This document shows, in pieces, positions 25,930-46,916 of a DNA stretch of 47,483 nt; within the stretch, counting starts at the first letter, position 1, and each line of letters opens with the position of its first letter. The translations under genes were made by a program, and so were the position numbers. This stretch comes from Acidobacteriaceae bacterium (GTDB taxonomy: Bacteria; Acidobacteriota; Terriglobia; Terriglobales; Acidobacteriaceae): the NCBI GenBank assembly GCA_025352065.1, contig JANXUC010000147.1:1-47483 (forward strand), in the 5' to 3' direction. Under the pieces are notes generated by a model. The model did no database searches and had not been told where the DNA came from. It was given only the letters and a program-made list of their open reading frames with translations.

Positions 25930-26337
25930 CACAAACCTTGCGTGACGATCACCGTATCAGGCATGCAAGCGTTTTTTCGTCGAGTGCACTAACAGGTAAA
26001 ACCAAACTTAAGTCACATTGCATTGAGTACTGCCCAGGGTCTGGATCGCCCAATCGGGTTATTGCAGCGGCCCTATTTCCAAAGGAACCGGAGAAACCCT
26101 CCAAAACCCTGTTAAATAGCGGCTTTCCGGCACTTTTACCCGTCCGTTCCACATCGCACCTAGGCAACGAACCGTGGGTTCACGATGATCTTCGAACTTC
26201 CACGCCTGGTACATGTCCCTGTAAAAAAATACAGCGTGAACTAGTGAGACCTAGGCGCTTACCTGAGTGCAACGTACAGTCATTTTCAAGGACTCGTACA
26301 GCGAGTTCCCCCAAACTCAGCATTGAAGGGGAGTGTA
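25930..26337. other. Intergenic region upstream of the first beta-helix gene
   Basis: 408 bases without a supported gene. Two small inverted repeats are present: GAACC/GGTTC (26169-26181) and CTGTA/TACAG around an A-rich loop (26219-26234). A plus-strand frame across the region is a continuation of a shadow of the GT4 gene and has no start or composition to support it. Confidence 0.4.
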
Positions 26338-28992
26338 ATGCGAACCAGCCATTTTGCCGAGAACTGTTCAACCAATGTCGGCTTGTTTTTCTCGTTGCGC
26401 GTCGCCGCTGCTGCTTTGTTGATGCCACTAGTCTTCATCCAGGCACAGGCGGCAACCACGAACGCGGTCACGGCACAGAAGCGAAACGAGATCAAGATCA
26501 CCGCATCCTTAGGTGCTGCTAAGCAGCGCCAAGCATTCCAAGGAACGATCAAAGCTACGGGTGGCGCTCGTTTTTACACGTATTTGATCGTCTCCGGAAC
26601 TCTGCCAACCGGACTCGCCCTCCATGCCGCGACGGGCGCAATTTTGGGAACTCCAGTGCAAGCGGGGACCAGCAACTTTACGGTTCGGGCTCTGTCCGCC
26701 AGCCGGCGGCATCACGCCGATCTGGGATTGCGACTGACCGTTGCCCCCGTTCAGTCCACTATTACGGTGACGGTAACGCCATCGGCGGCAACCGTTTCCT
26801 CCGGCGCTAGCCAACAGCTCACTGCCTCGGTAACTGGAGGCACGACAACTACAAGCGCGCAGTTCACTTGGAGCGCAACCGCGGGCACCGTGACTACCAG
26901 CGGCCTTTTCACTGCGCCGACCACCAGCGTGGCGACCAGCGTGACGGTAAAGGCGACGAGCGTCGCCGACCCAACAGCTTCGGCCTCCGCGGCGGTTTCC
27001 GTCACACCGGTCACCACGGCGAATCTGAAGGTCGCCACGACCGGCTTGCCGAACGCGACGCAAGGATCTTCCTATTCGGATAGCCTAGCGGCCTCGGGTG
27101 GTTCGCAACCTTATACATGGCACTTGGCATCGGGATCGCTTCCTGCTGGCGTCTCCCTTACTTCAGCGGGAGCCTTGACTGGTAGCCCTGTCAAGACCGG
27201 TACCTTCTCGTTCACAGCGCAAGTAACGGATACGGCTTCCCGCAGCGCAACTGCGAGCCTGGCCTTGACTGTAGATTTGCCCAGCAGCGGAAAGTTTGAC
27301 GGCCCGGCGGAACTTCCACGAGCCTACGTACTCAGCGCTCTGGCGAACACTCCCGCAAACGGTAAGACGTGGCAGGTTTCCGATGCTGCCGGTCTTCAGT
27401 CAGCCCTGAATGCCTCGGCGTGCGGTGACACGGTCAGCCTAAAGGCCGGAGCCACCTTCACTGGAACCTTTTCTTTCCCCGGAAAGAGCTGCGATGACCA
27501 ACACTGGATCATCGTTCGCACCTCCGCTCCAGACTCCAGTCTGCCAGCGGAAGGCACGCGTATTTCACCTTGTTTCGGTGGCGTAGCTTCGCTTCCAGGC
27601 CGCCCGGCTCTCAATTGCAAATCTACCGCGAACGTGATGGCGAAACTGGTCATTTCACAGGCGTCTGGTTCAGGACCGGTCACGTTCCTGGCCGGAGCCA
27701 ACCATTACAGGCTGCTTGGGCTGGAAATTACGCGCACCGCTAACGGCGCGTTTATCGGCAACCTGGCATTCCCTGCGAATGGTGCGACCGGCGACCACAT
27801 CATTTTTGATCGCGTTTGGATGCACGGAACAGTACACGACGACACGACACGCGGAGTTTACTTAAGCGGGCTTACGAACACTGCGGTTGTCGACTCTTAC
27901 CTCAACGACTTCCACTGCGAAGCGAAGACTGGAAGCTGCAGCGACGCTCAGACCATCTCTGGTGGACTCGGTAACGCACCTGGCGGTCCTTACAAGATCG
28001 TGAACAATTTCCTGGAATCATCCGGCGAAGTTGTTCTGTTCGGCGGAGGCGGCGCCACGGTAACTCCTGCCGACATCGAAGTTCGGCACAATCACTTCTT
28101 CAAACCTACAAGCTGGATGCCCGGCAAACCTGGAATGGTGGGCGGTAATCACGGCAACCCGTTTGTTGTGAAAAACCACTTTGAGCTGAAGAATGCCCAA
28201 CGTGTGCTCTTTGAAGGCAACGTGGCAGAGAATACATGGGGCGGTTTTTCGCAAGCTGGGTTCACCCTGCTGCTGACTCCCAAGAACCAAGGGACACCCA
28301 ATGGACCAGTCTGCCCGATCTGCCAGGTCACAGACGTTACTATCCGCTACAGCACGTTTAGCCATGTGGGCGGAGGCTTCCAGATCGCAAACGCAATTAG
28401 TGTGGGCGGAGGTCCGCAGTTCGCGGGCGCCCGCTACAGCATCCACGACATAGTCCTGGATGATGTGGACGCCAAGGCCTACGCCGGTCAAGGACAGTTG
28501 GCGCAGGTTTCCAGCGGTCCAATCAGTCCGCTGCTGAGCGATGTTCAGCTCAACCACATCACGGCCTTCCCTTCCAATATGATCTTTGATATCGGAAACC
28601 CTGCTGCGGGCCCGAAGATGCCGAACTTCATGTTCGCCAACAGCATTGTGACCAGCGGTCCGTATCCCGTCTGGGGCATTGGAGGCGGCACCGCAAACTG
28701 CGCCTACAATGTAAACGTTCCTGCCAATCTGCTTAACAATTGTTTCGTTCCTTACAACTTCAATCACAACGTGTTGATCGGGGTACCAAGCCGATGGCCA
28801 GCCTCAACCTGGCCCAGCGGAAACACTCTGATGCCAAACGGCAATTCAGTCGGTTTCGTAAACTTTAACAACGGAAACGGCGGAGACTACCACCTGGCCA
28901 ACGGCAGTTCGTGGAAAGGTGCGGGGAGCGATGGCAAGGATCTAGGGGCGGACATGACCGCTCTGGATGCCGCTATAGCTGGCGCGTACTAA
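26338..28992 (+). CDS. Secreted Ig-like plus parallel beta-helix protein (long paralog)
   Basis: Encodes 884 residues from ATG 26338 (AAGGGGAG ribosome site 26326-26333). The signal peptide ends near QAQA/ATT (about residue 38). There follow a putative-Ig (He_PIG-like) domain, a bacterial Ig-like (BIG2-like) domain rich in Thr/Ser/Val, and a second He_PIG-like domain (SGGSQPYTWHLASGSLPAGV). A right-handed beta-helix domain of about 560 residues begins FDGPAELPRAYVLSAL and contains repeated H/N-rich turns such as DRVWMHG and RHNHFFKP. The beta-helix part is the close paralog of the protein at 30967-32733. It has pectate-lyase-like topology, but I see no catalytic triad I can assign. It has no PEP-CTERM tail. 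Likely an extracellular polysaccharide-binding or modifying protein. Confidence 0.82.
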   Translation: MRTSHFAENCSTNVGLFFSLRVAAAALLMPLVFIQAQAATTNAVTAQKRNEIKITASLGAAKQRQAFQGTIKATGGARFYTYLIVSGTLPTGLALHAATGAILGTPVQAGTSNFTVRALSASRRHHADLGLRLTVAPVQSTITVTVTPSAATVSSGASQQLTASVTGGTTTTSAQFTWSATAGTVTTSGLFTAPTTSVATSVTVKATSVADPTASASAAVSVTPVTTANLKVATTGLPNATQGSSYSDSLAASGGSQPYTWHLASGSLPAGVSLTSAGALTGSPVKTGTFSFTAQVTDTASRSATASLALTVDLPSSGKFDGPAELPRAYVLSALANTPANGKTWQVSDAAGLQSALNASACGDTVSLKAGATFTGTFSFPGKSCDDQHWIIVRTSAPDSSLPAEGTRISPCFGGVASLPGRPALNCKSTANVMAKLVISQASGSGPVTFLAGANHYRLLGLEITRTANGAFIGNLAFPANGATGDHIIFDRVWMHGTVHDDTTRGVYLSGLTNTAVVDSYLNDFHCEAKTGSCSDAQTISGGLGNAPGGPYKIVNNFLESSGEVVLFGGGGATVTPADIEVRHNHFFKPTSWMPGKPGMVGGNHGNPFVVKNHFELKNAQRVLFEGNVAENTWGGFSQAGFTLLLTPKNQGTPNGPVCPICQVTDVTIRYSTFSHVGGGFQIANAISVGGGPQFAGARYSIHDIVLDDVDAKAYAGQGQLAQVSSGPISPLLSDVQLNHITAFPSNMIFDIGNPAAGPKMPNFMFANSIVTSGPYPVWGIGGGTANCAYNVNVPANLLNNCFVPYNFNHNVLIGVPSRWPASTWPSGNTLMPNGNSVGFVNFNNGNGGDYHLANGSSWKGAGSDGKDLGADMTALDAAIAGAY

Positions 28993-30901: not shown

Positions 30902-30966
30902 CGCCTGCCGACTGAATTGTCGCCCACCTCGCCAACATGCTAGTCTCGATTCAGAGGGACGATAGA

Positions 30967-32733
30967 ATGCGCATTTTGCTTCGAAATCTTCTTGTCACAG
31001 GGCTCTTGCTACCTGCCTCGGCAATCCTGGCCGGAGCTCAGAAACCGAGCCCGTCCTCGCCGGGTAATTTCGATGGGCCTGCGGAACTGCCCCGGCTGCA
31101 GGTGAAGAGTTCTTTGGCCGACACTCCTGCCCCAGGCAAAACGCGGTTGGTGCATGCAGGCGACGATCTGGGGCAGACCTTCAAGCAGGCCGCCTGTGGA
31201 GATACCATTAAGCTAGAAGCGGGAGCTGTGTTCTCCGGCCGCTTCGTTCTTCCAGAGAAGAATTGCGACCAGGCTCACTGGATCATTCTCCGTACCAGCG
31301 CACCGGATTCAGCACTGCCGCCCGAAGGCTCTCGTATCACTCCCTGTTACGCAGGTTTAGCGTCGCTGCCCGGTCGACCAGCCTACCCCTGCCCTCAGGC
31401 TAAAAACGTTCTGGCACGCATTGAATTTCCGGGTAAGGGTTCCGGACCCATCGTATTCGCCCCGGGCGCCAATCACTATCGGCTGCTGGGACTGGAAATC
31501 ACGCGCTCCACCACCGACGGACCTCTTAGCGGCTTAGTTACGATCAGTCCCCAGAACACCGCGAGCTATCTCGTGTTCGACCGGAACTGGATCCACGGCA
31601 CGGCCCAAAGTGAAACTACCCGAGGTATCGGGCTGGGCGGCTCCACGAATGTCGCAGTTGTGGATTCGTACCTTTCGGACTTCCACTGCATTGCCCTAAT
31701 AGGCTCTTGCACGGATTCACAAGCGATCGCCGGAGGTACTAGCCTTCTTCCAATGGGCCCCTACAAGATCGAGGACAATTTTCTCGAATCCGCGGGAGAA
31801 GGAATCGAGTTCGGTGGCGGACATGCCGACGGTCCCCCGACTGACATCGAAATCCGTCGTAACTATCTGTTTCGGCCGCTGACCTGGATGAAAGACAATC
31901 CAGGCTTTGTCGGCAGCGCAGACGGTCATCCCTTCATTGTGAAGAACATATTCGAACTCAAGAACGGCCAGCGTGTTCTCTTCGAGCAGAATGTTCTGGA
32001 GAATTGCTGGGGCGGCTTTTCTCAGGAGGGCTACGGCGTTCTCTTGACTCCCAAGAGCCAGGGTAACAACCAATGCCCGGAGTGCCGTGTTCTGGATGTC
32101 ACCATCCGATATTCAAAGATCAGGAACGTTGGCGCGGGCTTCCAGATTGCGAACATTCCGTCTGACGGCAAGGCGTACGCTAAGGACGGTGGCCGCTACA
32201 GCATTCACGACGTGCTGGTGGAAAATATCGACGGCGAGCGCTTCCACGGCAACGGAGTGCTGTTCCAGATTAACTCCAATAAATTGCCTCTGCACGATGT
32301 GACGATCGATCACGTCACAGGCATTGGAGCAAAATGGATGTTTGTCATAGGTGCTCCGACCGGCGAAGCGAAAATTGCGAACTTCACTTTCACCAACAAC
32401 CTGATTGGCGCCCGGCTGGAAATCGAGTCTCCCGGCGGAGGCCCTGGTAATTGCGCCTACAGACCCGAGGCGCAGCAACCCACTGGGATATTCGAACACT
32501 GCTTCTCCAATGCGAAGGTGACCGGCAATGTCATCATTGGAGGAAGCAAGTGGCCGCCTAAGAACACTACCGTTAAGCATCACGCAGAGATTGGCTTCCT
32601 GGCTGCTGATAAGGATCAGGTCCACGACTTCCGGCTTGGCTCAGACAGTCGTTACAAGAAGGCAGGTATCGACCAAAAAGATGTCGGAGCGGACATCGAC
32701 GCGATCGAAGCCGCAACCAATGGAACTTTGTGA
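30967..32733 (+). CDS. Secreted parallel beta-helix protein (short paralog)
   Basis: Encodes 588 residues from ATG 30967; GAGGGA lies 8-13 bases upstream, and an in-frame ATG at 30937 lacks a ribosome site. The signal peptide is MRILLRNLLVTGLLLPASAILAGA. The mature protein starts almost immediately with FDGPAELPRLQVKSSLADTP and aligns by eye along its whole length with the beta-helix half of the 26338-28992 protein (shared blocks: IIVRTSAPDS/IILRTSAPDS, GANHYRLLGLEITR, DSYLNDFHC/DSYLSDFHC, RVLFE, LLTPK-x-QG, VTIRYS). The Ig-like N-terminus is absent. The regular Asn/Asp-rich turns fit a right-handed beta helix. It converges on the sulfotransferase gene (stops 90 bases apart). Confidence 0.85.
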   Translation: MRILLRNLLVTGLLLPASAILAGAQKPSPSSPGNFDGPAELPRLQVKSSLADTPAPGKTRLVHAGDDLGQTFKQAACGDTIKLEAGAVFSGRFVLPEKNCDQAHWIILRTSAPDSALPPEGSRITPCYAGLASLPGRPAYPCPQAKNVLARIEFPGKGSGPIVFAPGANHYRLLGLEITRSTTDGPLSGLVTISPQNTASYLVFDRNWIHGTAQSETTRGIGLGGSTNVAVVDSYLSDFHCIALIGSCTDSQAIAGGTSLLPMGPYKIEDNFLESAGEGIEFGGGHADGPPTDIEIRRNYLFRPLTWMKDNPGFVGSADGHPFIVKNIFELKNGQRVLFEQNVLENCWGGFSQEGYGVLLTPKSQGNNQCPECRVLDVTIRYSKIRNVGAGFQIANIPSDGKAYAKDGGRYSIHDVLVENIDGERFHGNGVLFQINSNKLPLHDVTIDHVTGIGAKWMFVIGAPTGEAKIANFTFTNNLIGARLEIESPGGGPGNCAYRPEAQQPTGIFEHCFSNAKVTGNVIIGGSKWPPKNTTVKHHAEIGFLAADKDQVHDFRLGSDSRYKKAGIDQKDVGADIDAIEAATNGTL

Positions 32734-37263: not shown

Positions 37264-38385
37264 CTACCGGCTCCAGACCGTCTTGCGGCCCAGTACAAAA
37301 TTTCGGAATGCCACCAACGCTGCCATGTTTAGCACCACGAACGTCAACGCCGCATCGGCCACGCGACTCACCACTCCCAGGCGGGCCCGCATTCCCGCTA
37401 ACAGGCTGAGCGCGTAGAAACAAAGCTGAGCCGCAAGGCAAGCTTTGTAAAAGGGACCGCCAATCCACGCCGAGCTCAACAGCACGCCCGCCAGCGCAAA
37501 CGGCACGAACAAGCGCAGCAGTTTGTGGCTCACAAAGTCCCAAAGGAGTGGGTTCTGTCCGCTCAGCAGCCAAGGCGCCACTTGCACCAGTTGGTAGTTT
37601 CCACTCAGGGTTCGGACCTTACGCCAGAACTCCCGTCCTGAGCCCAGATCGGGCTGGTCCCACGCCTTCGCTCTGGGATCGAAGACAACGCGAAATCCCT
37701 GACGCAGCACGCCCATCGGCAGGAAAACGTCATCCAAGATCAAGTCGGCGGGCAACTCAGTCAGAAGAGTACGTCGAGCCGCATAGAGCGCTCCTGTAGC
37801 GCCGATCGTCGATCCCGACGCCGACTCCATTTCCCTGACTTTCTTTTCCACCCGCCAATACAGTCCCATGCCTCGCGAGCTTTCGCCGTCTTCGGGGCTC
37901 CCCAGCATTAACTCGCCGCTGGCACAACCAACGGCAGGGTCGGCAAAGTTTTCCATGAGCAGCCGAATCGCTCCGGAATCAAGCACTTGCCGGACGTCGG
38001 TGAACAGCACAACTTCACCGCGCGCTTCGGGGATGGCATGATTCAATCCAATCGCCTTGCCACTATTTTCCGGCAACAGAATCGAACGAATTTCGCCGCA
38101 CTGCGTCCAATCCTGCAAAATTCTTTCCGTTCCATCTTGAGAACCATCCGAGACGACCAGTATCTCCATCCAGTCCCGCGGATAATCCAGTGCGGTTAAA
38201 TTCCTCAGCTTGATCGGGAGCGCCGCCTCTTCATTCCGCACGACCATGACTACAGATACAGCCGGCGTAATGCTTTCCCTCTGTACGGGCTTCCTCCTCC
38301 ATCGGCTTCGCAACCATAGCCAGACTGGATAGCCAAGATAAGCGTAGAGGATGAGTGCCGCCGATAGCCAAAATACCCATTTCAT
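37264..38385 (-). CDS. Membrane-anchored family 2 glycosyltransferase
   Basis: Encodes 373 residues. An N-terminal signal anchor (WVFWLSAALILYAYLGYPVWLWL) precedes a GT-A domain starting VSVVMVVRNEEAAL, with VVSDGSQDGT, LPENSGKAIGLNHA, FTDVRQ (D-x-D equivalent), and LILDDVFLPM. Two to three C-terminal membrane segments close it. Resembles the EPS-locus GT2 enzymes that extend a lipid-linked oligosaccharide at the cytoplasmic face. The start overlaps the stop of the upstream sugar transferase (ATGA), so it is translationally coupled. Confidence 0.92.
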   Translation of the reverse strand: MKWVFWLSAALILYAYLGYPVWLWLRSRWRRKPVQRESITPAVSVVMVVRNEEAALPIKLRNLTALDYPRDWMEILVVSDGSQDGTERILQDWTQCGEIRSILLPENSGKAIGLNHAIPEARGEVVLFTDVRQVLDSGAIRLLMENFADPAVGCASGELMLGSPEDGESSRGMGLYWRVEKKVREMESASGSTIGATGALYAARRTLLTELPADLILDDVFLPMGVLRQGFRVVFDPRAKAWDQPDLGSGREFWRKVRTLSGNYQLVQVAPWLLSGQNPLLWDFVSHKLLRLFVPFALAGVLLSSAWIGGPFYKACLAAQLCFYALSLLAGMRARLGVVSRVADAALTFVVLNMAALVAFRNFVLGRKTVWSR

Positions 38386-39761
38386 CGCGCCCCCCGGCCA
38401 AACAGCACGGTCTTCACCGTCTGAAAGATAATCAGAATATCCAGGCCCAGGGATATGTTTTTAATATAAAACAGGTCGTACTGCAGTTTTTCCTTTGAAT
38501 CTTCCACCGTATTGCCATAGCGGTAGCGAACTTGCGCCCATCCCGTTATGCCAGGACGCACAACGTGGCGCACTGGATAATACGGAATTTCTTTGGTCAG
38601 CCACTCCACAAATTCAGGACGCTCCGGCCGCGGCCCCACAAAAGCCATATCGCCGCGCAAGACGTTCCACAACTGCGGCACTTCGTCTAACCGCGACTTG
38701 CGCAAGAACTTCCCAATCCTCGTAATTCGAGGATCGTCATCGCCCGCCCACGTCGGTCCGGTATCCGCCTCCGCATTCGGGCGCATGGTACGAAACTTAT
38801 AGCAATGGAACACCAGCCCGCCTCGCCCCACGCGCTTCTGCCTGTATAGAAGCGGCCCCCGCGAATCCAGCTTGATGGCCAGAATTACCAGCGGAATCAC
38901 AGGCAGAACTACCAGCAGCAATAGCAAGGAGGCCGACCATGAAAATACCCGCCGCAACTGCATGAAGGCAGGACTAAAGCGGAAGCCCTCCGCATAAATC
39001 AGCCAGCTGGGATAGAGATGCTCCACTTCAATCTTGCCGGAAATACGCTCGTTCAGCGAGGTTGCTTCTTCAATCTTCACGCCCTGCAGCCGCAGGTGCA
39101 GAAGCTCCTTCACCGGAAGGTTGCCGCGGCTATCGGCCAGTGCCACGATTACGTGATGAATCTTCTCCCGCCGAACCGCTTCCAGAAGATGGGCGCCCAG
39201 GCTCTCGCGGTTCACTGGACCTTCCATCTGCCCGGTCCAGCTCACGACTTTCATTCCAATATCAGAACGGCGCCGCAATCCCTGCACCAGTCGCTGCGCC
39301 CGCTCCCCAATCCCCAGTACATAAACGCTGTCCTGGAAGTAGTCCTGCTGCACCAGCCAATGGTAAATCGCGCGCCAGCCAAACAGGGACACGGTGAAGA
39401 TCAGGAGCCCGATCAGGTAAGCATCGTTCCCGAGCATCAACTTGGGCTGCAGGTAACCGATCGCCGCCAGCAAAAGCGCCAACAACCCAGGCACCAGCAA
39501 AAGCCGGAAATAGAGTTCTCCGCGCTCTTCAAACTGCGCCGGGTCATACAAGTCGAACCAATACGAGGCCACCACTACAATGACGGTAACAGCCAGGATT
39601 TTGTAGTATCCGCCCTCAAAATTGAGAACGATGTAGCCTTCCTGCCACCCGCCGTACTGCATCACAGTCGCCAGCACGAACGAGGCCCATACAATCAGGG
39701 CCTCGCCCACCAGCAGAACCAGCGTGCGAATCGGGTAATAGACGTTGAAAAGGCGAATCAC
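38382..39761 (-). CDS. Polyprenyl-phosphate sugar phosphotransferase (exosortase-linked, EpsB/WcaJ type)
   Basis: Encodes 459 residues. Four N-terminal membrane helices (about 10-120) are followed by a CoA-binding-like domain (VYVLGIGERAQRLVQGL), then another helix and the bacterial sugar transferase domain (about 270-455) with FHCYKFRTM, RKSRLDEVPQLWNVLRGDM, FVGPRPERPEFV and RPGITGWAQV. It starts repeat-unit assembly by moving a sugar-1-phosphate to undecaprenyl phosphate. The pattern matches the family I know as TIGR03013, typical of XrtA loci. 12 bases after the kinase stop. Confidence 0.93.
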   Translation of the reverse strand: MIRLFNVYYPIRTLVLLVGEALIVWASFVLATVMQYGGWQEGYIVLNFEGGYYKILAVTVIVVVASYWFDLYDPAQFEERGELYFRLLLVPGLLALLLAAIGYLQPKLMLGNDAYLIGLLIFTVSLFGWRAIYHWLVQQDYFQDSVYVLGIGERAQRLVQGLRRRSDIGMKVVSWTGQMEGPVNRESLGAHLLEAVRREKIHHVIVALADSRGNLPVKELLHLRLQGVKIEEATSLNERISGKIEVEHLYPSWLIYAEGFRFSPAFMQLRRVFSWSASLLLLLVVLPVIPLVILAIKLDSRGPLLYRQKRVGRGGLVFHCYKFRTMRPNAEADTGPTWAGDDDPRITRIGKFLRKSRLDEVPQLWNVLRGDMAFVGPRPERPEFVEWLTKEIPYYPVRHVVRPGITGWAQVRYRYGNTVEDSKEKLQYDLFYIKNISLGLDILIIFQTVKTVLFGRGAR

Positions 39762-39773
39762 GTTCTCAGTCCT

Positions 39774-40664
39774 CTAGCTCTTCTTGAGTTCCGCTTCTGG
39801 CTGCCCATAGGCTGGATAGTAAGCACGGGCGTAGGAATCGAGCTTCGGGTCAATTCCATTCAGCACCACGCCCAGTAGTTGGTCGGGCGTAAATTCCATG
39901 CGCGCTTTACGAGCCGCTTCGGAAGGTGTCACGCTCGAGCGTACGACCATCAAAACACCATCGCAAAAGTTAGCCAGAACGCTGGCGTCCGATACCAAAG
40001 CCGCTGGAGGCGAATCCACAATGATCCAGTCAAACAGCGGTTCCAATCGTGCCATTAGATTCTTTAACCGTCCGTTCGATACCAACTCTGGCGCATTCGT
40101 TACCGGCCGGCCTCCGGGAATCAAGAACAAATTCTCCATGGTACCCTGCTGAATCACGCCAAATTCATCCTGCTCCCCCATCAGATATTCCGCTAGTCCC
40201 GGTTGGACCGCCGTCCCGAAAGCCTGATGGAGGCGAGGCCCGCGCATATCGGCATCAATCAGCAAGGCTCTGCGTCCACGCTGCTGCACCAACACCTGCG
40301 CCAGATTCGCGGAGACAAAGCTCTTCCCTTCCTGAGGCAGCGCGCTGGTAATGAGAATCTTCTTTAGCGGTTTACGTTCCCGCATCTGGTACAGACGGGA
40401 CCGCAGTGTCCGCAATTCCTCTTTCCCCATCGCCTGATCGGAACCCGCGAAAAACAGCATTGTATTCAGGTTCGGATTCCACTGAACGCGCGCCGTCCGC
40501 GCTTGCAACGCCTCAAAAGTCAACGGCCCGTCCGCGTTCACCGACCCGACCATCCGTGCCGACATTCCGGACGGCATCGGCTGCTCGATCACGTGGTCCT
40601 CGGGACCTCCGTGGGTGGCGCGCTCCAGTTCGGCCTTCTTTAGCGCTTCATGAATGCGGCTCAT
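39774..40664 (-). CDS. BY-kinase-like tyrosine autokinase (CpsD/Wzc C-domain type)
   Basis: Encodes 296 residues. Walker A ALPQEGKS (108-115), Walker A' LLIDADMRG (134-142), and Walker B IIVDSPP. The C-terminal tail has a tyrosine cluster (YARAYYPAYG) for autophosphorylation. There is no membrane anchor; as in many XrtA loci the activating transmembrane partner would be the Wzz-like protein two genes upstream. It controls chain length and export. The start overlaps the stop of the ATPase gene (ATGA at 40661-40664). Confidence 0.93.
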   Translation of the reverse strand: MSRIHEALKKAELERATHGGPEDHVIEQPMPSGMSARMVGSVNADGPLTFEALQARTARVQWNPNLNTMLFFAGSDQAMGKEELRTLRSRLYQMRERKPLKKILITSALPQEGKSFVSANLAQVLVQQRGRRALLIDADMRGPRLHQAFGTAVQPGLAEYLMGEQDEFGVIQQGTMENLFLIPGGRPVTNAPELVSNGRLKNLMARLEPLFDWIIVDSPPAALVSDASVLANFCDGVLMVVRSSVTPSEAARKARMEFTPDQLLGVVLNGIDPKLDSYARAYYPAYGQPEAELKKS

Positions 40665-41617
40665 AGTTTCCTTTCCTTGGACAGCTCAGTCTCGGGGCGG
40701 CGCAAACGATCCGCTAGCGTTGCCAACGTACGCAATGCCTCTACTACATCCAGCTTCTCGGAATTGGCCGCCACAACCGGAGTCGTAATCTGATCCGGCA
40801 TGCCACTCTCATGCAAATCAAAGTCGCGCGCCACAGCCTCAATAACGGTAGGGCCCACGGTCTTATGCTGGTCCACAAAACTGCTGACCAGCGCGTGCTC
40901 GCAAAGCATATTCACCACGCGAGGAATCCCGCCCGAATAGCGGTAGATGACATCGATGGATTCGGGTTCGAAAATCATGCGCCCGTTCGATCCTGCGATC
41001 TGCAGTCTCTGGGTCACGTAAGCGCGCGCTTCTTCCAGCGTGAGCGGATGCGTCTTTGCGCGCAATGTCACACGTTGACGGAGCTGTCGCAACTGCGGCT
41101 GCCGCAGCTTGGCCTCTAACTCCGGCTGACCTACCAGCACAATCTGCAACAGCTTTTCCGTAAAGGTTTCCAGATTCGTCAGCAACCGAATCTCTTCCAG
41201 CACCTCGTCGGAAAGGTTCTGCGCTTCATCCACAATCAGCACGGCCGTTTCGCCCGCGCGATAGCGGTCTAGCAGCCAGTTATACAGCCGCAGCAGCACC
41301 TGGCTCTTAAGCCGGGACTCGCACGTGATGCCGAAATCGGCCATTGCGAAGTCCAGAAACTGCGTGGTGTTCAGGCGCGAGTTAAAGATGAACGCCGTTG
41401 CCACCTGCTGCACCCGCAGCCATTCCAGCAGCTTGTTGATCAGCGTCGTCTTGCCCGTGCCTACCTCGCCTGTGAGCAGCACAAAGCCTTTGCGGCTTTG
41501 GATGCCATAGGTGAGGCACGCCAGCGCCTCTTCCGTGTGCCGCGTCAAAAACAAATACCGCGGGTCCGGATTCACATTAAACGGATTGGCTTTGAGGCCA
41601 AAAAAATCCTTATACAT
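40661..41617 (-). CDS. ExeA-like AAA ATPase of exosortase loci
   Basis: Encodes 318 residues. MYKDFFGLKANPFNVNPDPRY (split here: MYKDFFGLKA, NPFNVNPDP) opens the ExeA/GspA-like family. Walker A is GEVGTGKTT (50-58), Walker B VLIVDEAQNL (about 125-134), and the sensor region LQIVLVGQPEL. The last 60 residues are Leu/Arg-rich helix. The family I know as the PEP-CTERM/XrtA-associated ATPase; its precise role in EPS assembly is not settled. Nine bases separate it from the Wzz-like stop. Confidence 0.93.
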   Translation of the reverse strand: MYKDFFGLKANPFNVNPDPRYLFLTRHTEEALACLTYGIQSRKGFVLLTGEVGTGKTTLINKLLEWLRVQQVATAFIFNSRLNTTQFLDFAMADFGITCESRLKSQVLLRLYNWLLDRYRAGETAVLIVDEAQNLSDEVLEEIRLLTNLETFTEKLLQIVLVGQPELEAKLRQPQLRQLRQRVTLRAKTHPLTLEEARAYVTQRLQIAGSNGRMIFEPESIDVIYRYSGGIPRVVNMLCEHALVSSFVDQHKTVGPTVIEAVARDFDLHESGMPDQITTPVVAANSEKLDVVEALRTLATLADRLRRPETELSKERKL

Positions 41618-41626
41618 AAAACCTCG

Positions 41627-43204
41627 TTAGACCTCGATCGTCTCTTTCTCCGCTTCGGGCTTATTCGGTTTCCGCCAGAACGTGGGCTTGCCTTCGGTAT
41701 CCTGGTTCTTCTCTTCTTCTTGTCCCAGCCATGGCAAAGCAATCAGCGTAGGCAACTCCAGCACGGCCTCCACATCCGGCTCAGTACGGATGGACGTATC
41801 TTTCAGTTCGAACATCAGCGCCATAGCAAGCCCCAAGCCGAATCCCGCGCCTAACCCACCCAACAGGAACAACCAGCGCTTGGGAAAGCTTGGGGCATCC
41901 GGCAGATCGGCCTGACTAAGCCAATTAAACTGTTCCCCCAACTGGCTCGTTTCCACACTTTGGGTCGTTTCCGCTGTGCCTTTCTTAGCCAGCAGATCCT
42001 GGTAAACTTTGTTCGCTGTTTCGTAGTCGCGAGTTAGAAGCTTGTATTGCTCTTCCACGGCCGGACCTACCGCTACTCTGGACTGGTAGGTCTGAATGTC
42101 ACGCTGCAGGCGGCCCTGGTCACGTGAAGCCTGCGCAATGATCTGCTCGTACTGATGAATCTGCACCCGCAATTGGCGGATATCGGCGGGCTCCGCAGCG
42201 CTAACTTTCTTAGCGTCTTCCGCGCTCATCGTAACCGTGCTAGCTTCGCTCGCTTTCCTTAGAAGCTCCGCTAGATCATGTTTGACCCTGATCACATCCG
42301 GATGGTCGGGCGTGTACCGCGACTCCAACTGCAACAACTCGGCCCGCTTGGCGGTAATCTGCTGATCCAGGGCTTGCGGATTCCCTCCTGAAGTTTGCGA
42401 TGCTCGCCATGCGGTAAGCTGCGTGGCCAACGTCGACTCAGCGAATGTCTTGTCCTGTTGCGCCCGGTTCAGTGCCTGGACATTGGCGTCCAACTGAGTG
42501 TTCAAGGCCGCTAGCATGTGGAAATTGTTGTCTGTATTGTCCGGGGTCTGCCCCACATACTGGCGATTGAAAGCGGCCACTTTCGCGTCCATCTGGTCCA
42601 AATTCTGCTTTGCTTCCGCCAATTGACGCTCGTAGAAGCCCGTAACGCCTTTCGCAGCCGCCTCCCGCCGCCGCAGGTTTTCGTCCAGCAGCATCGACGT
42701 AAGCTCGTTGCAAACCTTTTGGGCAATCACCGGATTGCTGGCGGTATAGAGCACGTTGAACCCGGGGAAATCCGGCGAGGTTGAGCCGCGCGGCTTCGGT
42801 CTGGGGCCAGCGCCGCCCCCCTTCCCGGTACTGGCACTGCTGGCTGCGTCTTGATCCATCGGCTGAATGCTGAGATTCGCGCGAATGTCTGGCATCAAAA
42901 CATCGGCTTCTTCGCCCTTCGCCAAGCCTAGCTTCTCGATCATCGGGCGAAGGCGGGGAGTACTCAGGATTTCCTGTTCCATTCCGACGATGCGTTGCAT
43001 CAAATCGGCCGTAACAATTGGCTTCACATCAATTTGCTGCCCCTCCACCAGCACTTGGGCCGTCGACGTGTATTTGGGCGGCACGGCATAGGAAGCCAGA
43101 AATCCCACCACCGGCATGAGTAGCGCGGGAATTATGATCTTCCACTTCTGGCGCCGCAGCATTCCCAGGTAGTCGTCCATTCCGAGTTGGCGATTTAAAA
43201 TCAT
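41627..43204 (-). CDS. Wzz-like polysaccharide chain-length protein (XrtA-type)
   Basis: Encodes 525 residues from ATG 43204 (GGAAGAG about 9 bases upstream; TTG 43231 rejected). One N-terminal membrane segment (WKIIIPALLMPVVGFLASY), a periplasmic Wzz domain from VPPKYTSTAQVLVEGQ, a Gly/Pro/Lys-rich insertion near residues 125-140, a long coiled coil (about 210-400, Gln/Ala/Leu-rich), and a second membrane segment near residue 450 (WLFLLGGLGAGFGLGLAMALMF). A C-terminal cytoplasmic tail with acidic Lys/Glu composition would meet the BY-kinase. It sets chain length. It follows the outer-membrane barrel gene after 82 bases. Confidence 0.93.
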   Translation of the reverse strand: MILNRQLGMDDYLGMLRRQKWKIIIPALLMPVVGFLASYAVPPKYTSTAQVLVEGQQIDVKPIVTADLMQRIVGMEQEILSTPRLRPMIEKLGLAKGEEADVLMPDIRANLSIQPMDQDAASSASTGKGGGAGPRPKPRGSTSPDFPGFNVLYTASNPVIAQKVCNELTSMLLDENLRRREAAAKGVTGFYERQLAEAKQNLDQMDAKVAAFNRQYVGQTPDNTDNNFHMLAALNTQLDANVQALNRAQQDKTFAESTLATQLTAWRASQTSGGNPQALDQQITAKRAELLQLESRYTPDHPDVIRVKHDLAELLRKASEASTVTMSAEDAKKVSAAEPADIRQLRVQIHQYEQIIAQASRDQGRLQRDIQTYQSRVAVGPAVEEQYKLLTRDYETANKVYQDLLAKKGTAETTQSVETSQLGEQFNWLSQADLPDAPSFPKRWLFLLGGLGAGFGLGLAMALMFELKDTSIRTEPDVEAVLELPTLIALPWLGQEEEKNQDTEGKPTFWRKPNKPEAEKETIEV

Positions 43205-43286
43205 TTTCGTGTTCTCTTCCTGCTGCAGCAAAGCAGCTTGGCTATCAATATCTGTTAGTGACCAAAACTCTTCCCGCCCTCTATCG

Positions 43287-44708
43287 CTAATCCAATCGAA
43301 TCGGCAATGGATGCCAGCTCAACGTAACGTCCGCTATGTGTCGATTGAACGAATGGGAGCAATCGATCAGCCCCCCCGCGCAGGCTGTCGAATTGAAATA
43401 CTCGTACGCATATTGGTAATGCATGGCCAAACTAAAGAATCGGCCGAGATGGCGCGTTACTCCGCCACCCGTGAACCCGTCCTGAAAAGATCCCCCTAAG
43501 GCTCTTCCCGCCGCAGCTTGCAGCGCAGTGTGGCGGGAATAGCCAGCATCGAAACTCGCCGACCAGACGCGATTCAGCGGTCGCTGAATCCCGCCGCGAA
43601 TCACGTCGCTCTTGGATCCGAGTTGCAAGCCGGAACCGCTCGAAGTGTACCGGGCATAACTCATTTCGAGGGCGGTCCGCGGAAACCTATATTTCAAGCT
43701 GGCACGAACATTCAAGTTTACGGTCGAGAACGCGGGACTCGGAGGCTTGTTGGCGAGCATCCGCACGCCCACGGAAGTGAACTGCGGGCCCGCGCCTAGA
43801 ATCAAGCTCATTCTTCCGGAAATCTGGTGCGCGTAGAGTACTTGCACGACGTTGCTAACGATGGTCCCCGCGCCTTGGGTAGGAAACTGAAATTGCTGGA
43901 ACCCGTAGGAAACCCCGATCTGGTCAAAACGGCTCAGTACCCGGTTGTAACCCGCTTGAGCATTCACTCCGTGGCTGTTGATGGTGGCCACAGAGGTTGT
44001 ACGCAAAAAGTCGGTAAAGGAATAGCCGCCGCCGAACGTAACCGTCGAACGCGGGTTCAGGCTCTCCTGCAGATTGATGGCAGTGGAATTTGAAAGCCTG
44101 GGATCTGTATTACTGATCGACCCAAAGCTACTTCCACCGCCTCCCGTGCTACTGCCTCCGCAGCTACCACCTCCCGTACTGCCACCGCTGTAACCGAATG
44201 ACCCTTCCGGCAGGTAGGACATCGAATCGCAAACCGCGGCATTCCCGGTGCGCCAGGAGTAGCGTTGAGAGGCGTCGAGTGAATGCGTTTGTGTGGGCTG
44301 TCCCCATGAATCGCTATACAGGCTTAGTCCGCCAATATAGTTCAGATTGAGATCGTAGCGACTCCACAGCCGCTTCATATCAAGGCTTCCTAAAACTCGG
44401 GTGATACCGACCAGACCACTCCCGCCTAGGCCACTTTGGCTGCGCAAGTTGCTGTTGACGGTTTCGGTCAAGTGCGCGCCGGGCTGCAGGTAACTGCGTG
44501 CCGCGACTCCAGGCTCGAGCGACGGCTCGTCCAGTGACGTCACAGGCGGAGCTTGTGCCGGAGGTGTCGCAGTTGGCTCCTGGCCGAATGCCGGAGCGGG
44601 CGTTGGTGTTGTCTGCGCCAGAGCCGGGCGCGCGAACGCCGCCGCTCCAAGCAACGTCATCCCCAGCAAAAGGAAGGACGTTCGCGCCATAGGGTGTTTT
44701 CCGTTCAT
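43287..44708 (-). CDS. Putative outer-membrane beta-barrel protein of the EPS locus
   Basis: Encodes 473 residues from ATG 44708; starts at 44738 and 44690 are also possible. The signal peptide (MARTSFLLLGMTLLGAAAF, cut near ALA/QTT) leads to a Pro/Thr-rich segment, then alternating-residue strands ending in an aromatic/hydrophobic residue, the pattern of a beta barrel (LTLSWHPLPIRLD-like end: VTLSWHPLPIRLD). A Gly/Ser/Cys-rich insert (about residues 160-190) sits in one loop. Exosortase loci often carry an outer-membrane barrel beside the Wza-like protein. It follows the Wza-like gene by 31 bases and may help cross the outer membrane. Confidence 0.78.
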   Translation of the reverse strand: MNGKHPMARTSFLLLGMTLLGAAAFARPALAQTTPTPAPAFGQEPTATPPAQAPPVTSLDEPSLEPGVAARSYLQPGAHLTETVNSNLRSQSGLGGSGLVGITRVLGSLDMKRLWSRYDLNLNYIGGLSLYSDSWGQPTQTHSLDASQRYSWRTGNAAVCDSMSYLPEGSFGYSGGSTGGGSCGGSSTGGGGSSFGSISNTDPRLSNSTAINLQESLNPRSTVTFGGGYSFTDFLRTTSVATINSHGVNAQAGYNRVLSRFDQIGVSYGFQQFQFPTQGAGTIVSNVVQVLYAHQISGRMSLILGAGPQFTSVGVRMLANKPPSPAFSTVNLNVRASLKYRFPRTALEMSYARYTSSGSGLQLGSKSDVIRGGIQRPLNRVWSASFDAGYSRHTALQAAAGRALGGSFQDGFTGGGVTRHLGRFFSLAMHYQYAYEYFNSTACAGGLIDCSHSFNRHIADVTLSWHPLPIRLD

Positions 44709-44739
44709 AGTGGATTCTCTCATCGCGCTGGTCATCACC

Positions 44740-45399
44740 CTACGGCACCACGATGGTGTCGCCCGGCTTGAGCAGGATGTTCTGTTCCATTCGCTCGCCT
44801 TTGACGACCATCTTGTAATTAAAGGGCAGCTTCAGCTGCTTGCCGTCTTCAATGCGCAAAATATAGATCTTCTTCTGATTGGCGAACTGCGAAAAGCCTG
44901 CCGTGGACAACGCCTGCAAAACCGTCATGTTGGGCAGGAGCGGCAACGCTCCTGTATGCGTCACTTCTCCCAGCATGAAAACTTTTTGGCTGTTCATTTG
45001 CGTCACGACTACCGTGACGCGCGGATCAGCCACAAACTTCTTCAATTTTTCCGCGATCAAATCCGCGAGCTGCATTGGAGTAAGCCCGGACGCTTGCACA
45101 TCGTTGAGCAGCGGCAGCGAGATCTTGCCGTCCGGACGAACCGGCAGCGTGGCCGTCAGCTTTTCTTCGTTCCAAACCGAAACCATGAGCGTGTCTTCGG
45201 ATCCGATTACATAGTCCTTCGGCGCCGCGTTCAGCATGGGCGGCGGAGTCGACGTCGAGGTTGCAGCAGGAGGCGGCGCTGGTGCAGCCGCAGTCTCCTT
45301 CGCCGGCTCCGACTGGGCCGGACTCTCCTGCGCCCAACACGCAGTTGAAATCAGAGTGCCTACCACGAGCCCACCTACCAACATCCCAGTTCGCTTCAT
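44740..45399 (-). CDS. Wza-like polysaccharide export protein
   Basis: Encodes 219 residues from ATG 45399; AGAGGAGCGGGT lies just upstream. The signal peptide is MKRTGMLVGGLVVGTLISTACWA; the Cys at about residue 21 is not in a clear lipobox. A Pro/Ala-rich spacer is followed by the Poly_export domain (YVIGSEDTLMVSVWNEEKL, PVRPDGKISLPLL) and a SLBB-like domain (VFMLGEVTHTGALPL). Length is that of the short XrtA-locus export proteins rather than full Wza. It is the first structural gene of the operon, 85 bases after the regulator. Confidence 0.92.
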   Translation of the reverse strand: MKRTGMLVGGLVVGTLISTACWAQESPAQSEPAKETAAAPAPPPAATSTSTPPPMLNAAPKDYVIGSEDTLMVSVWNEEKLTATLPVRPDGKISLPLLNDVQASGLTPMQLADLIAEKLKKFVADPRVTVVVTQMNSQKVFMLGEVTHTGALPLLPNMTVLQALSTAGFSQFANQKKIYILRIEDGKQLKLPFNYKMVVKGERMEQNILLKPGDTIVVP

Positions 45400-45484: not shown

Positions 45485-46543
45485 CTAAGCTCCATACTCC
45501 TGGCACCCAATCTGCTTCAGTTTGTAGAGCAATGCCTTGTAACTGATCTGCAGCTCCTGAGCGGCGCGACGGCGATTCCAGCGCGTCCGGTTTAAGACCT
45601 TCAGAATGAGCTCCTTCTCAGCTTCACGCGAGGCTGCCTTCGACGCTTCTTTCAGCGATACCCGGCCATCGGTGCGCCGTCCCGGGACGATGCTCAGTCC
45701 GCGCAGCCCCCCGAGTACAAGCGCCTCATCGCCCAAAACTACAATCGCCTTAGCGACGTCCTGCAGTTCGCGTAGATTTCCTGGCCAGGAATAATCCTGT
45801 AATCGCTGTTCCGCTTCTAAGCTGAGCTGTGGAAGGCTCCGTCCAAGCTCCGCTGCGGAGCGAGTCAGGAAGAATCGCGCCAAGGGAGCAATATCTTCAC
45901 GACGCTGTCGCAACGGCGGCAGGCGCAAACAAACGCTGCTGATCCGGTAGTACAAATCTTCCCGGAAGCGGCGCTCGGCCAACTCGCGCTCCAAGTCCTT
46001 TCCAGTTGTGAAAACCAGGCGTGCGCTGGCGGCGCCTTTAGCGCACTCCAGCACTTGCATAAGCTTCTCCTGGCATTCCGCGGCAAGATTGGCAACCTCT
46101 TCCAGCAGAACGGTGCCACGGCGGAAAGTGGACATCACGTTGTGTTCGAGGGCCTCCGCAGTGAGCGTTGCGCAATCCAACGCGACGAAGGGCTGGCTGC
46201 GGCGGATCGACATTTCATGAATTCTCTGCGCCGCCGTGCCCTTCCCCGCACCGGCTTCGGCGCGAATCAAGACTGGCGCATCGCCGGCTGCCAACTCGCG
46301 CATGACCTGCTCCACCGACCGCATCGCAGCACACCCACACGGCAGAAACTGAGACCCCATCCCCTCGTTCTCCGGCGAAGATGCGCCGTCAACAAACGAG
46401 GCTTCCCGTTCGTTGGCCTTCGAGGACAATGCGCGCGAAGGAGGCACGGAGAAATTGTGGTCCATGGTCGACATAGAGTGGTGGATCTTCCCGGGGGCTG
46501 GAACGAAATCGTGTCGATCCTTGTGAAGCAATACAGATGCCAT
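45485..46543 (-). CDS. NtrC-like AAA+ regulator lacking the GAFTGA loop
   Basis: Encodes 352 residues; the GGAGG ribosome site is 10 bases before ATG 46543. Residues 1-70 are not a receiver or other known sensor domain. The AAA+ core has Walker A AEAGAGKGT (95-103), a degenerate Walker B VLLEEV (145-150, Glu in place of the usual Asp), RFREDLYYR (192-200, arginine finger region) and WPGNLREL (253-260, sensor II). A Fis-type helix-turn-helix closes it (about 315-345, NRRRAAQELQISYKALLYKL). The GAFTGA segment expected between LTAEALEHN and RRGTVLLEEV is absent, so contact with sigma-54 is unlikely. It may control the EPS operon downstream and the exosortase gene facing it. Confidence 0.88.
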   Translation of the reverse strand: MASVLLHKDRHDFVPAPGKIHHSMSTMDHNFSVPPSRALSSKANEREASFVDGASSPENEGMGSQFLPCGCAAMRSVEQVMRELAAGDAPVLIRAEAGAGKGTAAQRIHEMSIRRSQPFVALDCATLTAEALEHNVMSTFRRGTVLLEEVANLAAECQEKLMQVLECAKGAASARLVFTTGKDLERELAERRFREDLYYRISSVCLRLPPLRQRREDIAPLARFFLTRSAAELGRSLPQLSLEAEQRLQDYSWPGNLRELQDVAKAIVVLGDEALVLGGLRGLSIVPGRRTDGRVSLKEASKAASREAEKELILKVLNRTRWNRRRAAQELQISYKALLYKLKQIGCQEYGA

Positions 46544-46916
46544 GCTGGGGATGCCTCCACTTTCACGAAGCGCAGACCTAAACCCATACCGGACAACTAC
46601 TTAAGCCATTTCAAAGAAATTCCCCACATCTTTTCCTTACCCTTATCTTCCCACGGTTCAGAGTAAAAGTGGAAAACAATTACCTATTCTTTCGTAATCC
46701 TCTATTATTATCTCTCCTTCGTGGGGCTAAGCCAATGCCTATAAACCCATTTTAATGAGCAATTTACAGCTTCAGCAGCCGACCAAGCTGGGGGTACCGC
46801 CTCCCGCTCAGAGATCAGGGATAGGACCACTCGATTGGCCTTTCGAGGGCAAGTTCCCCCCGAAAGGCTATTTGCATTTCGGAAGACGTGGCATATTCTG
46901 TAAGCCAAGTCATTTC
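46544..46916. other. Divergent control region between regulator and exosortase
   Basis: 373 bases with no gene. The part nearest the regulator (46600-46730) is A/T-rich and probably carries its promoter. The exosortase side holds a strong hairpin at 46838-46868. Short frames in the region have no ribosome site. Confidence 0.5.
46838..46868 (+). promoter_or_regulatory. Inverted repeat upstream of the exosortase gene
   Basis: GCCTTTCG (46838-46845) and CGAAAGGC (46861-46868) are perfect complements. Inside them GGG (46847-46849) can pair with CCC (46857-46859), giving an 11-bp stem with one mismatched pair. It lies 48-79 bases before the exosortase ATG and may be an operator or a hairpin in the leader. 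Confidence 0.5.

Follow-up and report, generated by a model that had tools for sequence, protein, structure and literature searches.

The first gene of an EPS operon in an Acidobacteriaceae bacterium encodes an NtrC-type protein that has lost the sigma-54 contact loop. The gene lies behind a conserved sigma-54-type -24/-12 site and an enhancer-like palindrome. The reading that we favor, with a probability of about one half, is that a sigma-54-driven operon would make a loopless protein able to bind the enhancer of that operon but unable to act on sigma-54, and that this protein would serve as a feedback brake. At the sequence level this reading is supported by the loop loss, the single clade formed by the loopless proteins, the site, the palindrome, the synteny, the likeness of the recognition helices, and the resemblance of palindrome and site to a pair in front of an intact activator's gene. 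The gene is part of a stretch of 47,483 nucleotides (contig JANXUC010000147.1), referred to below as the window, the features of which are listed in Table 1. Loci used for comparison carry L numbers, and contigs of the same genome carry C numbers.

Table 1. Features of the loopless regulator gene, its upstream region and the EPS operon
Feature	Position	Strand	Basis or remark
Divergent exosortase (EpsH family), cut by contig end	46755..47483	+	profile match
Enhancer-like palindrome, GAATAGGTAATTGTTTTCCACTTT on minus	46666..46689	.	centre 135 nt upstream of -24 element
Sigma-54-type -24/-12 site, TGGCATCTGTATTGCT	46527..46542	-	overlaps annotated start; conserved position
Loopless NtrC-type regulator gene, probable true extent	45485..46474	-	annotated ORF runs to 46543; alternative start 46465
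Walker A (AEAGAGK)	46241..46261	-	Lys in 89/89 loopless proteins
Position of missing L1 loop, residues 134-143, HNVMSTFRRG	46115..46144	-	alignments
Walker B, Asp replaced by Glu (TVLLEE)	46097..46114	-	alignment
Shortened L2 / pre-sensor-I stretch, residues 167-174	46022..46045	-	alignment
Fis-type helix-turn-helix	45506..45589	-	Pfam; best-conserved part of protein
Wza-like polysaccharide export gene, next in operon	44740..45399	-	profile match
Outer-membrane-protein-like gene, EPS operon	43287..44738	-	weak TIGR03016 match, under cut-off
Wzz / chain-length determinant	41627..43231	-	TIGR03007-like, under cut-off
XrtA-system ATPase	40661..41617	-	TIGR03015-like, under cut-off
Tyrosine autokinase	39774..40664	-	TIGR01007
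EpsB-type sugar transferase	38382..39761	-	TIGR03013

The open reading frame at 45485-46543 on the minus strand (352 residues) is identified by the ORF list and Pfam as an NtrC-type AAA+/Fis protein. Its Pfam matches are Sigma54_activat, in two stretches, Sigma54_activ_2, AAA_lid_14 and HTH_8. The AAA+ sigma-54 interaction domain is present, scoring 84.9 bits against PF00158 (cut-off 20.2) with an additional match to PF14532. In the alignment with the intact relative L028, 37 residues of the latter correspond to 19 residues of the window protein (NVMSTFRRGTVLLEEVANL). Hence 18 residues of the L1 loop are missing, GAFTGA among them, and an equal gap is seen in alignments with the PDB sequences of NtrC1, NifA and ZraR. 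The L2 or pre-sensor-I stretch is also 9 residues shorter, 15 compared to 24 in L028. The Walker A Lys is retained, and the Walker B Asp is replaced by Glu (E148 E149). The initial annotation, made from the letters of the window, had recognized the AAA+ and Fis domains, the loss of about 20 residues including GAFTGA and the Glu in Walker B, and all of these observations hold. With a bEBP fold, a Fis helix-turn-helix and a lost L1 loop, the protein is a GAFTGA-less bEBP; it lacks both the GAFTGA loop and the Walker B Asp of functional sigma-54 activators. Its expected inability to drive sigma-54 promoters is supported as well, in that direct remodelling of sigma-54 appears unlikely with the loop gone.

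The AlphaFold model is confident for the AAA+, lid and HTH parts (mean pLDDT 82.4), and residues 1-61 are below 50. Structure comparison places the model close to the AAA+ domain of FlrC (4qht_B; Z 25.1, rmsd 2.1 over 217) and to VpsR (7v2b_A; Z 23.4, rmsd 2.2 over 215). No receiver domain was matched by Pfam at E 0.001. The protein scores 129.3 bits against the TyrR family (NF008085) and 157 bits against PrsR (TIGR02915), below the respective curated cut-offs of 576 and 502.6. The probable start of translation is 46474 or 46465, for a product of about 326-329 residues, because the sigma-54-type element at 46527-46542 abuts the annotated ATG at 46543. The latter was rejected as the likely start, being overlapped by this promoter-like site.

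As the initial annotation had it, the gene heads an EPS operon, with the wza-like gene next and further EPS genes behind it. The wza-like gene lies directly 3' of the loopless gene in 83 of the 84 loci with enough sequence, and 52 of 77 loci have a divergent exosortase no more than 1.5 kb away. Elsewhere in the window, two large predicted proteins (26323-28992 and 30937-32733) contain similar stretches (FDGPAELPR...) and are apparently paralogues near the EPS genes.

Relatives were collected from 100 genomes of the same family and from the best 80 further loci of named records. Matches to the loopless protein occur in 26 of the 100 genomes, its own included, with E <= 5.4e-59 (the next best match has 3.2e-51), and the loop is absent in all 26. 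It is also absent in 103 of 110 aligned rows, the window's included, or in 89 of 96 once duplicates are removed; these counts are biased toward loopless proteins, since the relatives were found by likeness to one, and are not independent, since the genomes are related. Most of the relatives are metagenome assemblies. The exceptions among the aligned rows are L027, which has a decayed loop, L028-L030, L106, L107 and L110. Because of this bias, a second survey was anchored on the wza-like gene. Among its best 30 same-class loci, the window included, 27 carry a loopless gene directly upstream (not counting L186, a 53-bit match to an unrelated ORF), three have no activator homologue and none has an intact activator. 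The best matches of a phylum search added 25 loci, of which three have an intact activator homologue, that of L174 and L175 being of another type, and 22 have none.

The initial annotation would have taken intact GAFTGA relatives at the same locus as the mark of a local deletion. Such relatives were found only at the more distant L106, L107 and L110, and none is among the 30 wza-anchored loci of the class. Together, the family alignment and the wza-anchored survey rule out a local deletion or a sequencing error. In a midpoint-rooted tree of 102 rows, which included 57 of the 89 loopless rows and left out the other 32, the sampled loopless proteins form one side of a branch with an SH-aLRT of 100. 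The nearest neighbor of this clade is L107, followed by L106 and L110. All three are intact homologues with a wza-like gene downstream, and their records bear the names gp11 Acidobacteria, Deltaproteobacteria and Myxococcaceae. The loop was probably lost once, in an acidobacterial ancestor, and finding GAFTGA intact only in these distant homologues is what a single loss would lead one to expect.

Conservation within the 89 loopless proteins is uneven. The commonest letter has an average frequency of 0.88 in the HTH compared to 0.59 in the AAA+ part, much of which is poorly conserved, as is the N-terminal part. The Walker A Lys is invariant (89/89), and two arginine-finger positions are kept in 85 and 83 of the 89 proteins. 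The first acidic position of Walker B is D in 38, E in 26 and Q in 14 of the 89; among 27 distant members, 22 have D there. We read this pattern as retention of DNA binding and probably of nucleotide-dependent assembly, with sigma-54 remodelling lost; the loop would have gone first, and the ATPase residues would have drifted later.

The initial annotation had overlooked the elements in front of the operon. A scan for sites found an element with GG at -24 and GC at -12 upstream of the loopless gene. A gene-strand site scoring at least 17 is present in 85 of 88 family loci, compared to 13 of 88 on the reverse strand and 14.2% of Markov-resampled sequences; at a score of at least 18 the corresponding values are 72/88, 2/88 and 3.75%. 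L057 has too little upstream sequence and was omitted from the 88 loci, and a good site is lacking (score < 17) at L022, L061 and L099. On the gene strand, the site mostly lies about 200-270 nt before the Walker A codon. A scan of the window allowing two mismatches gave 33 sigma-54-type matches where 26 are expected. This is near chance, and the case for a promoter therefore rests on conservation and position and not on a single site. The genome contains rpoN. We infer that this element serves the operon as an active promoter for sigma-54.

The palindrome upstream of the -24 element has the consensus TGGGAAA-N4-TTTCCCA and was analyzed in the 84 loci that have a site of at least 17 and at least 200 nt of upstream sequence. 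The dyad GAAA-N4-TTTC occurs in 41 of these 84 upstream regions, compared to a mean of 1.2 in five resampled sets. A weight matrix places 82 of the 84 above the 99% level of resampled sequence, the matrix having been trained on those loci themselves. When the matrix was trained on one group of loci and used on the other, the palindrome was found in 56 of 58 and 21 of 26 loci, and 51 of these 56 and 17 of these 21 matches fall into the range of 110-155 nt upstream, compared to an expected 14%. This distance from the -24 element is the usual place of a sigma-54 enhancer. The palindrome thus lies where an activator site is looked for, some 100-200 nt upstream, and is a candidate site predicted from the DNA sequence.

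In the 47 kb window, the palindrome and site in front of the loopless gene are the sole pair above thresholds. Across 77 loci (1.2 Mb), pairs above both thresholds are found at 62 loopless-gene promoters (62/77), five intact-activator promoters and six other places, and none is found in 312 kb of resampled sequence. Four of the six other places precede genes that were named by eye as NusG-like antiterminators (L076:8401 and L108:16940) or TPR lipoproteins (L077:6670 and L086:6694), hinting at a larger EPS regulon. In a minority of loci, which includes L062, L077, L086, L087, L097 and L109 but not the window, a pair is present on that side of the palindrome which faces the exosortase (minus strand, near the gene). 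The palindrome pattern alone, with up to three mismatches, matches 12 distinct places in the whole genome (control 2); the window's own palindrome is too divergent for this pattern. Nine of the ten places fetched are inside ORFs of at least 150 residues, and none of the ten has a -24/-12 site of at least 17 at a distance of 100-170 nt (best 16.2). These matches were taken as chance, and a genome-wide regulon defined by the palindrome alone was rejected.

Intact activators, also missed by the initial annotation, are encoded on another contig of the same genome. Contig C161 carries a histidine kinase and a REC activator with GAFTGA, and divergently a REC-less activator with GAFTGA (L112:9672-10775). 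The REC-less activator shares with the loopless protein the AAA+ plus Fis architecture and a similar palindrome-site pair, which precedes its gene at L112:9666 (palindrome 15.9, site 18.3). It differs in having GAFTGA and in adjoining a gene with a PEP-CTERM-like end and the histidine kinase/REC-activator pair. The recognition helix is ISYRALLYKIR in the intact activator and ISYKALLYKLK in the loopless protein, with differences at three of 11 positions. Among 16 other activator homologues of the genome, a WNR..ISY[KR][AG]LLYK helix is found in only two at C161 and one at C164 (ISYRGLLYKI), and is absent from 13.

The gene with the PEP-CTERM-like end (VPEPGTLSLLGAGLVGLAGVVRRR; L112:10924-11610) directly follows the intact activator on C161, and no palindrome-site pair was found directly before it. 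At 139 nt before the histidine-kinase gene (L112, about 8840) there is a palindrome with a score of 13.7, accompanied by no good -24/-12 site.

Related loci contain 17 intact-activator genes, leaving out the cut-off one of L097. A -24/-12 site of at least 17 is present about 194-220 nt before the Walker A codon in 16 of them, and the best palindrome is 339-394 nt before this codon in all 17. The palindrome scores at least 12 in only six of the 17, and five exceed both thresholds at the set spacing. The weakest palindrome scores 4.8, and since the best palindrome at 14 other activator homologues of the genome reaches 5.0, only position sets the weakest of the 17 apart from background. Compared to those at loopless genes, the palindromes of intact-activator genes have lower scores and read TGTGAAA in place of TGGGAAA. 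Of the 26 genomes that encode the loopless protein, 25 also have the intact activator, which is present in 43 of the 74 others (Fisher test, p 1.3e-4, not to be taken at face value because the genomes are related). The intact activator is within reach in only 18 of the 47 loci with at least 8 kb of upstream sequence.

A feedback brake is the simplest reading of these findings: the gene of the loopless protein follows a sigma-54-type site, and the protein has nearly the helix of the activator whose own gene is preceded by a similar pair, but lacks the part that contacts sigma-54. According to this proposal, a sigma-54 activator homologue would have lost its contact loop once and been kept as a DNA-binding regulator, encoded at the start of an EPS operon whose promoter is of the sigma-54 type and has a palindrome upstream. 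GAFTGA activators encoded elsewhere, the REC-less one and the one linked to the histidine kinase, would turn the promoter on. The loopless protein would then accumulate and occupy the palindrome through its near-identical recognition helix, either alone or in mixed oligomers. Further activation of EPS expression would be lowered, either by the occupied enhancer or by poisoned mixed rings. Binding of the palindrome by both proteins and a negative net effect of the loopless one are both predictions of this scheme.

Several observations count against a brake. The differing and weaker palindromes at intact-activator genes indicate that the two proteins may prefer different sites. The kept Walker A Lys, the arginine fingers and the Walker B Asp of distant members would be more than a simple decoy needs. 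The location of the intact activator on another contig, its being within reach in 18 of the 47 loci only, the presence of a divergent exosortase in no more than 52 of the 77, and the three loci that have no good site (L022, L061 and L099) also weigh against it.

An extension of the brake reading, to which we give somewhat less than an even chance, is that an auto-activating sigma-54 regulator became an auto-repressor by the loss of one loop. Its position, the kind of enhancer and promoter and the helix would have been kept, and the sign of its action reversed. The intact homologue L107 (gp11) has a palindrome scoring 14.2 and, 138 nt apart from it, a weak -24/-12 site of 15.5, which is under the threshold; if the regulator did change sign, L107 would be a relic of the activating state. 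No palindrome was found at the other two intact homologues, L106 and L110, and this counts against an old origin of the pair.

The initial annotation had offered three roles for the protein. That of a repressor fits best, and the other two, a TyrR-like sigma-70 regulator and a partner of another activator, retain lesser probabilities. The protein might bind the palindrome and, like VpsR, TyrR or NtrC of Rhodobacter capsulatus, activate or repress a housekeeping promoter, for example that of the divergent exosortase or a second EPS promoter. Two divergent genes flank the palindrome, the fold closely resembles that of VpsR (7v2b_A), and GAFTGA-less homologues are reported at sigma-70 promoters (PMC10274813, PMC3162934). 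The conserved upstream site, however, is of the sigma-54 type, and a scan with a single sigma-70 consensus gave one match near the gene where 0.7 is expected by chance. The palindrome, moreover, mostly keeps the 110-155 nt from the -24 element that are usual for a sigma-54 enhancer. We therefore consider action at a sigma-70 promoter rather unlikely.

Alternatively, the loopless protein could be a partner subunit, forming mixed rings with the intact activator in which the intact subunits give the loops, and so tune or enable sigma-54 activation. The retained Walker A Lys, arginine fingers and AAA+ fold would suit such a subunit, as would its co-occurrence with the intact activator; yet the activator is present in 43 of 74 genomes that lack the loopless protein, which is thus not required there, and a ring partner sits poorly with the weak conservation at the N-terminus and through much of the AAA+ part. 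We regard this role as unlikely. That the gene is a decaying paralogue with no function of its own at the operon head is very improbable, because, although the ATPase motifs drift, as at the first acidic position of Walker B, the gene is kept directly before wza (83/84 loci and 27/30 of the best wza-anchored loci) and its HTH is almost invariant.

GAFTGA-less activators are known. Those described include NtrC of Caulobacter and R. capsulatus and VpsR (PMC10274813), and TyrR, DhaR, HupR, VpsR and YplP are listed as having a lacking or broken loop (PMC3162934). The window protein resembles R. capsulatus NtrC, Caulobacter NtrC, TyrR, HupR, DhaR and VpsR in that the L1 loop is deleted or broken, and several of these are described at sigma-70 promoters (PMC10274813, PMC3162934). 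Unlike them, the window gene lies behind a conserved sigma-54-type site and a palindrome, and its product has no recognizable receiver domain and a shortened L2 as well. VpsR of Vibrio cholerae, which has a close AAA+ fold, is reported to be loop-defective and linked to polysaccharide production (PMC3162934); the window protein differs from it in having no recognized receiver domain and in its gene setting.

In Proteobacteria, PEP-CTERM genes are described as preceded by a motif 1 and a sigma-54 site and associated with PrsK/PrsR (Haft et al. 2006, PMC1569441), and the transcription of one PEP-CTERM gene in Aquincola is reported to depend on RpoN1 (PMC9850573). The likeness to PrsK/PrsR (PMC1569441) consists in the exosortase/EPS context, a putative activator site before the -24/-12 element, and a pair of kinase and REC activator in the window's own genome. 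The PrsK/PrsR system differs in that it is proteobacterial and its motif 1 is about 63 nt from motif 2, before PEP-CTERM genes (PMC1569441), whereas here the palindrome is mostly 110-155 nt from -24, before an EPS operon.

In the open-licence literature, no paper was found that joins Acidobacteria, exosortase and sigma-54 (hyphenated spelling only), or GAFTGA and dominant negative. A conserved GAFTGA-less activator inside a sigma-54-type operon looks like a new form of this known type of protein. In the sources cited, such activators are explained as working with sigma-70, whereas here a conserved family is kept inside an apparent sigma-54 regulon. With a candidate promoter, a palindrome and an intact activator all identified, a clear test is possible of whether loop loss makes an activator a brake. 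For the exosortase-linked EPS loci of Acidobacteriota, the analysis further provides a predicted regulatory circuit and a searchable motif. If the brake reading is true, a feedback brake is encoded as the first gene of the operon that it restrains and has been kept across a class of Acidobacteriota.

Loop defects are also found outside the loopless clade. The REC-less activator at L027:1354-2466 has a decayed loop (FGCERAAGINGHEPG), apparently a further independent loss. A second group with a broken GAFTGA region (e.g. DLFGCENVGASGHIES) comprises L126:862-2154 on the minus strand of contig C164 in the window's own genome, L193-L198 and L202. It makes up eight of 20 loci fetched, and a wza-like match lies nearby in five (L192, L193, L195, L196 and L202). 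The copy in the own genome is closest to REC activators, and neither a palindrome nor a good sigma-54-type site was found there. This second group suggests that loop loss has occurred more than once in such loci.

Two metagenome contigs labelled Bacillota and Verrucomicrobia (L077, L034) hold the acidobacterial locus, and L077 groups with Terriglobia sequence in the tree; the labels reflect either mis-binning or transfer. Beside Wzz and kinase genes, L074 has another match to the loopless protein, weaker than the first and on the opposite strand, at about 10.2-10.9 kb downstream of where its loopless gene starts (minus strand).
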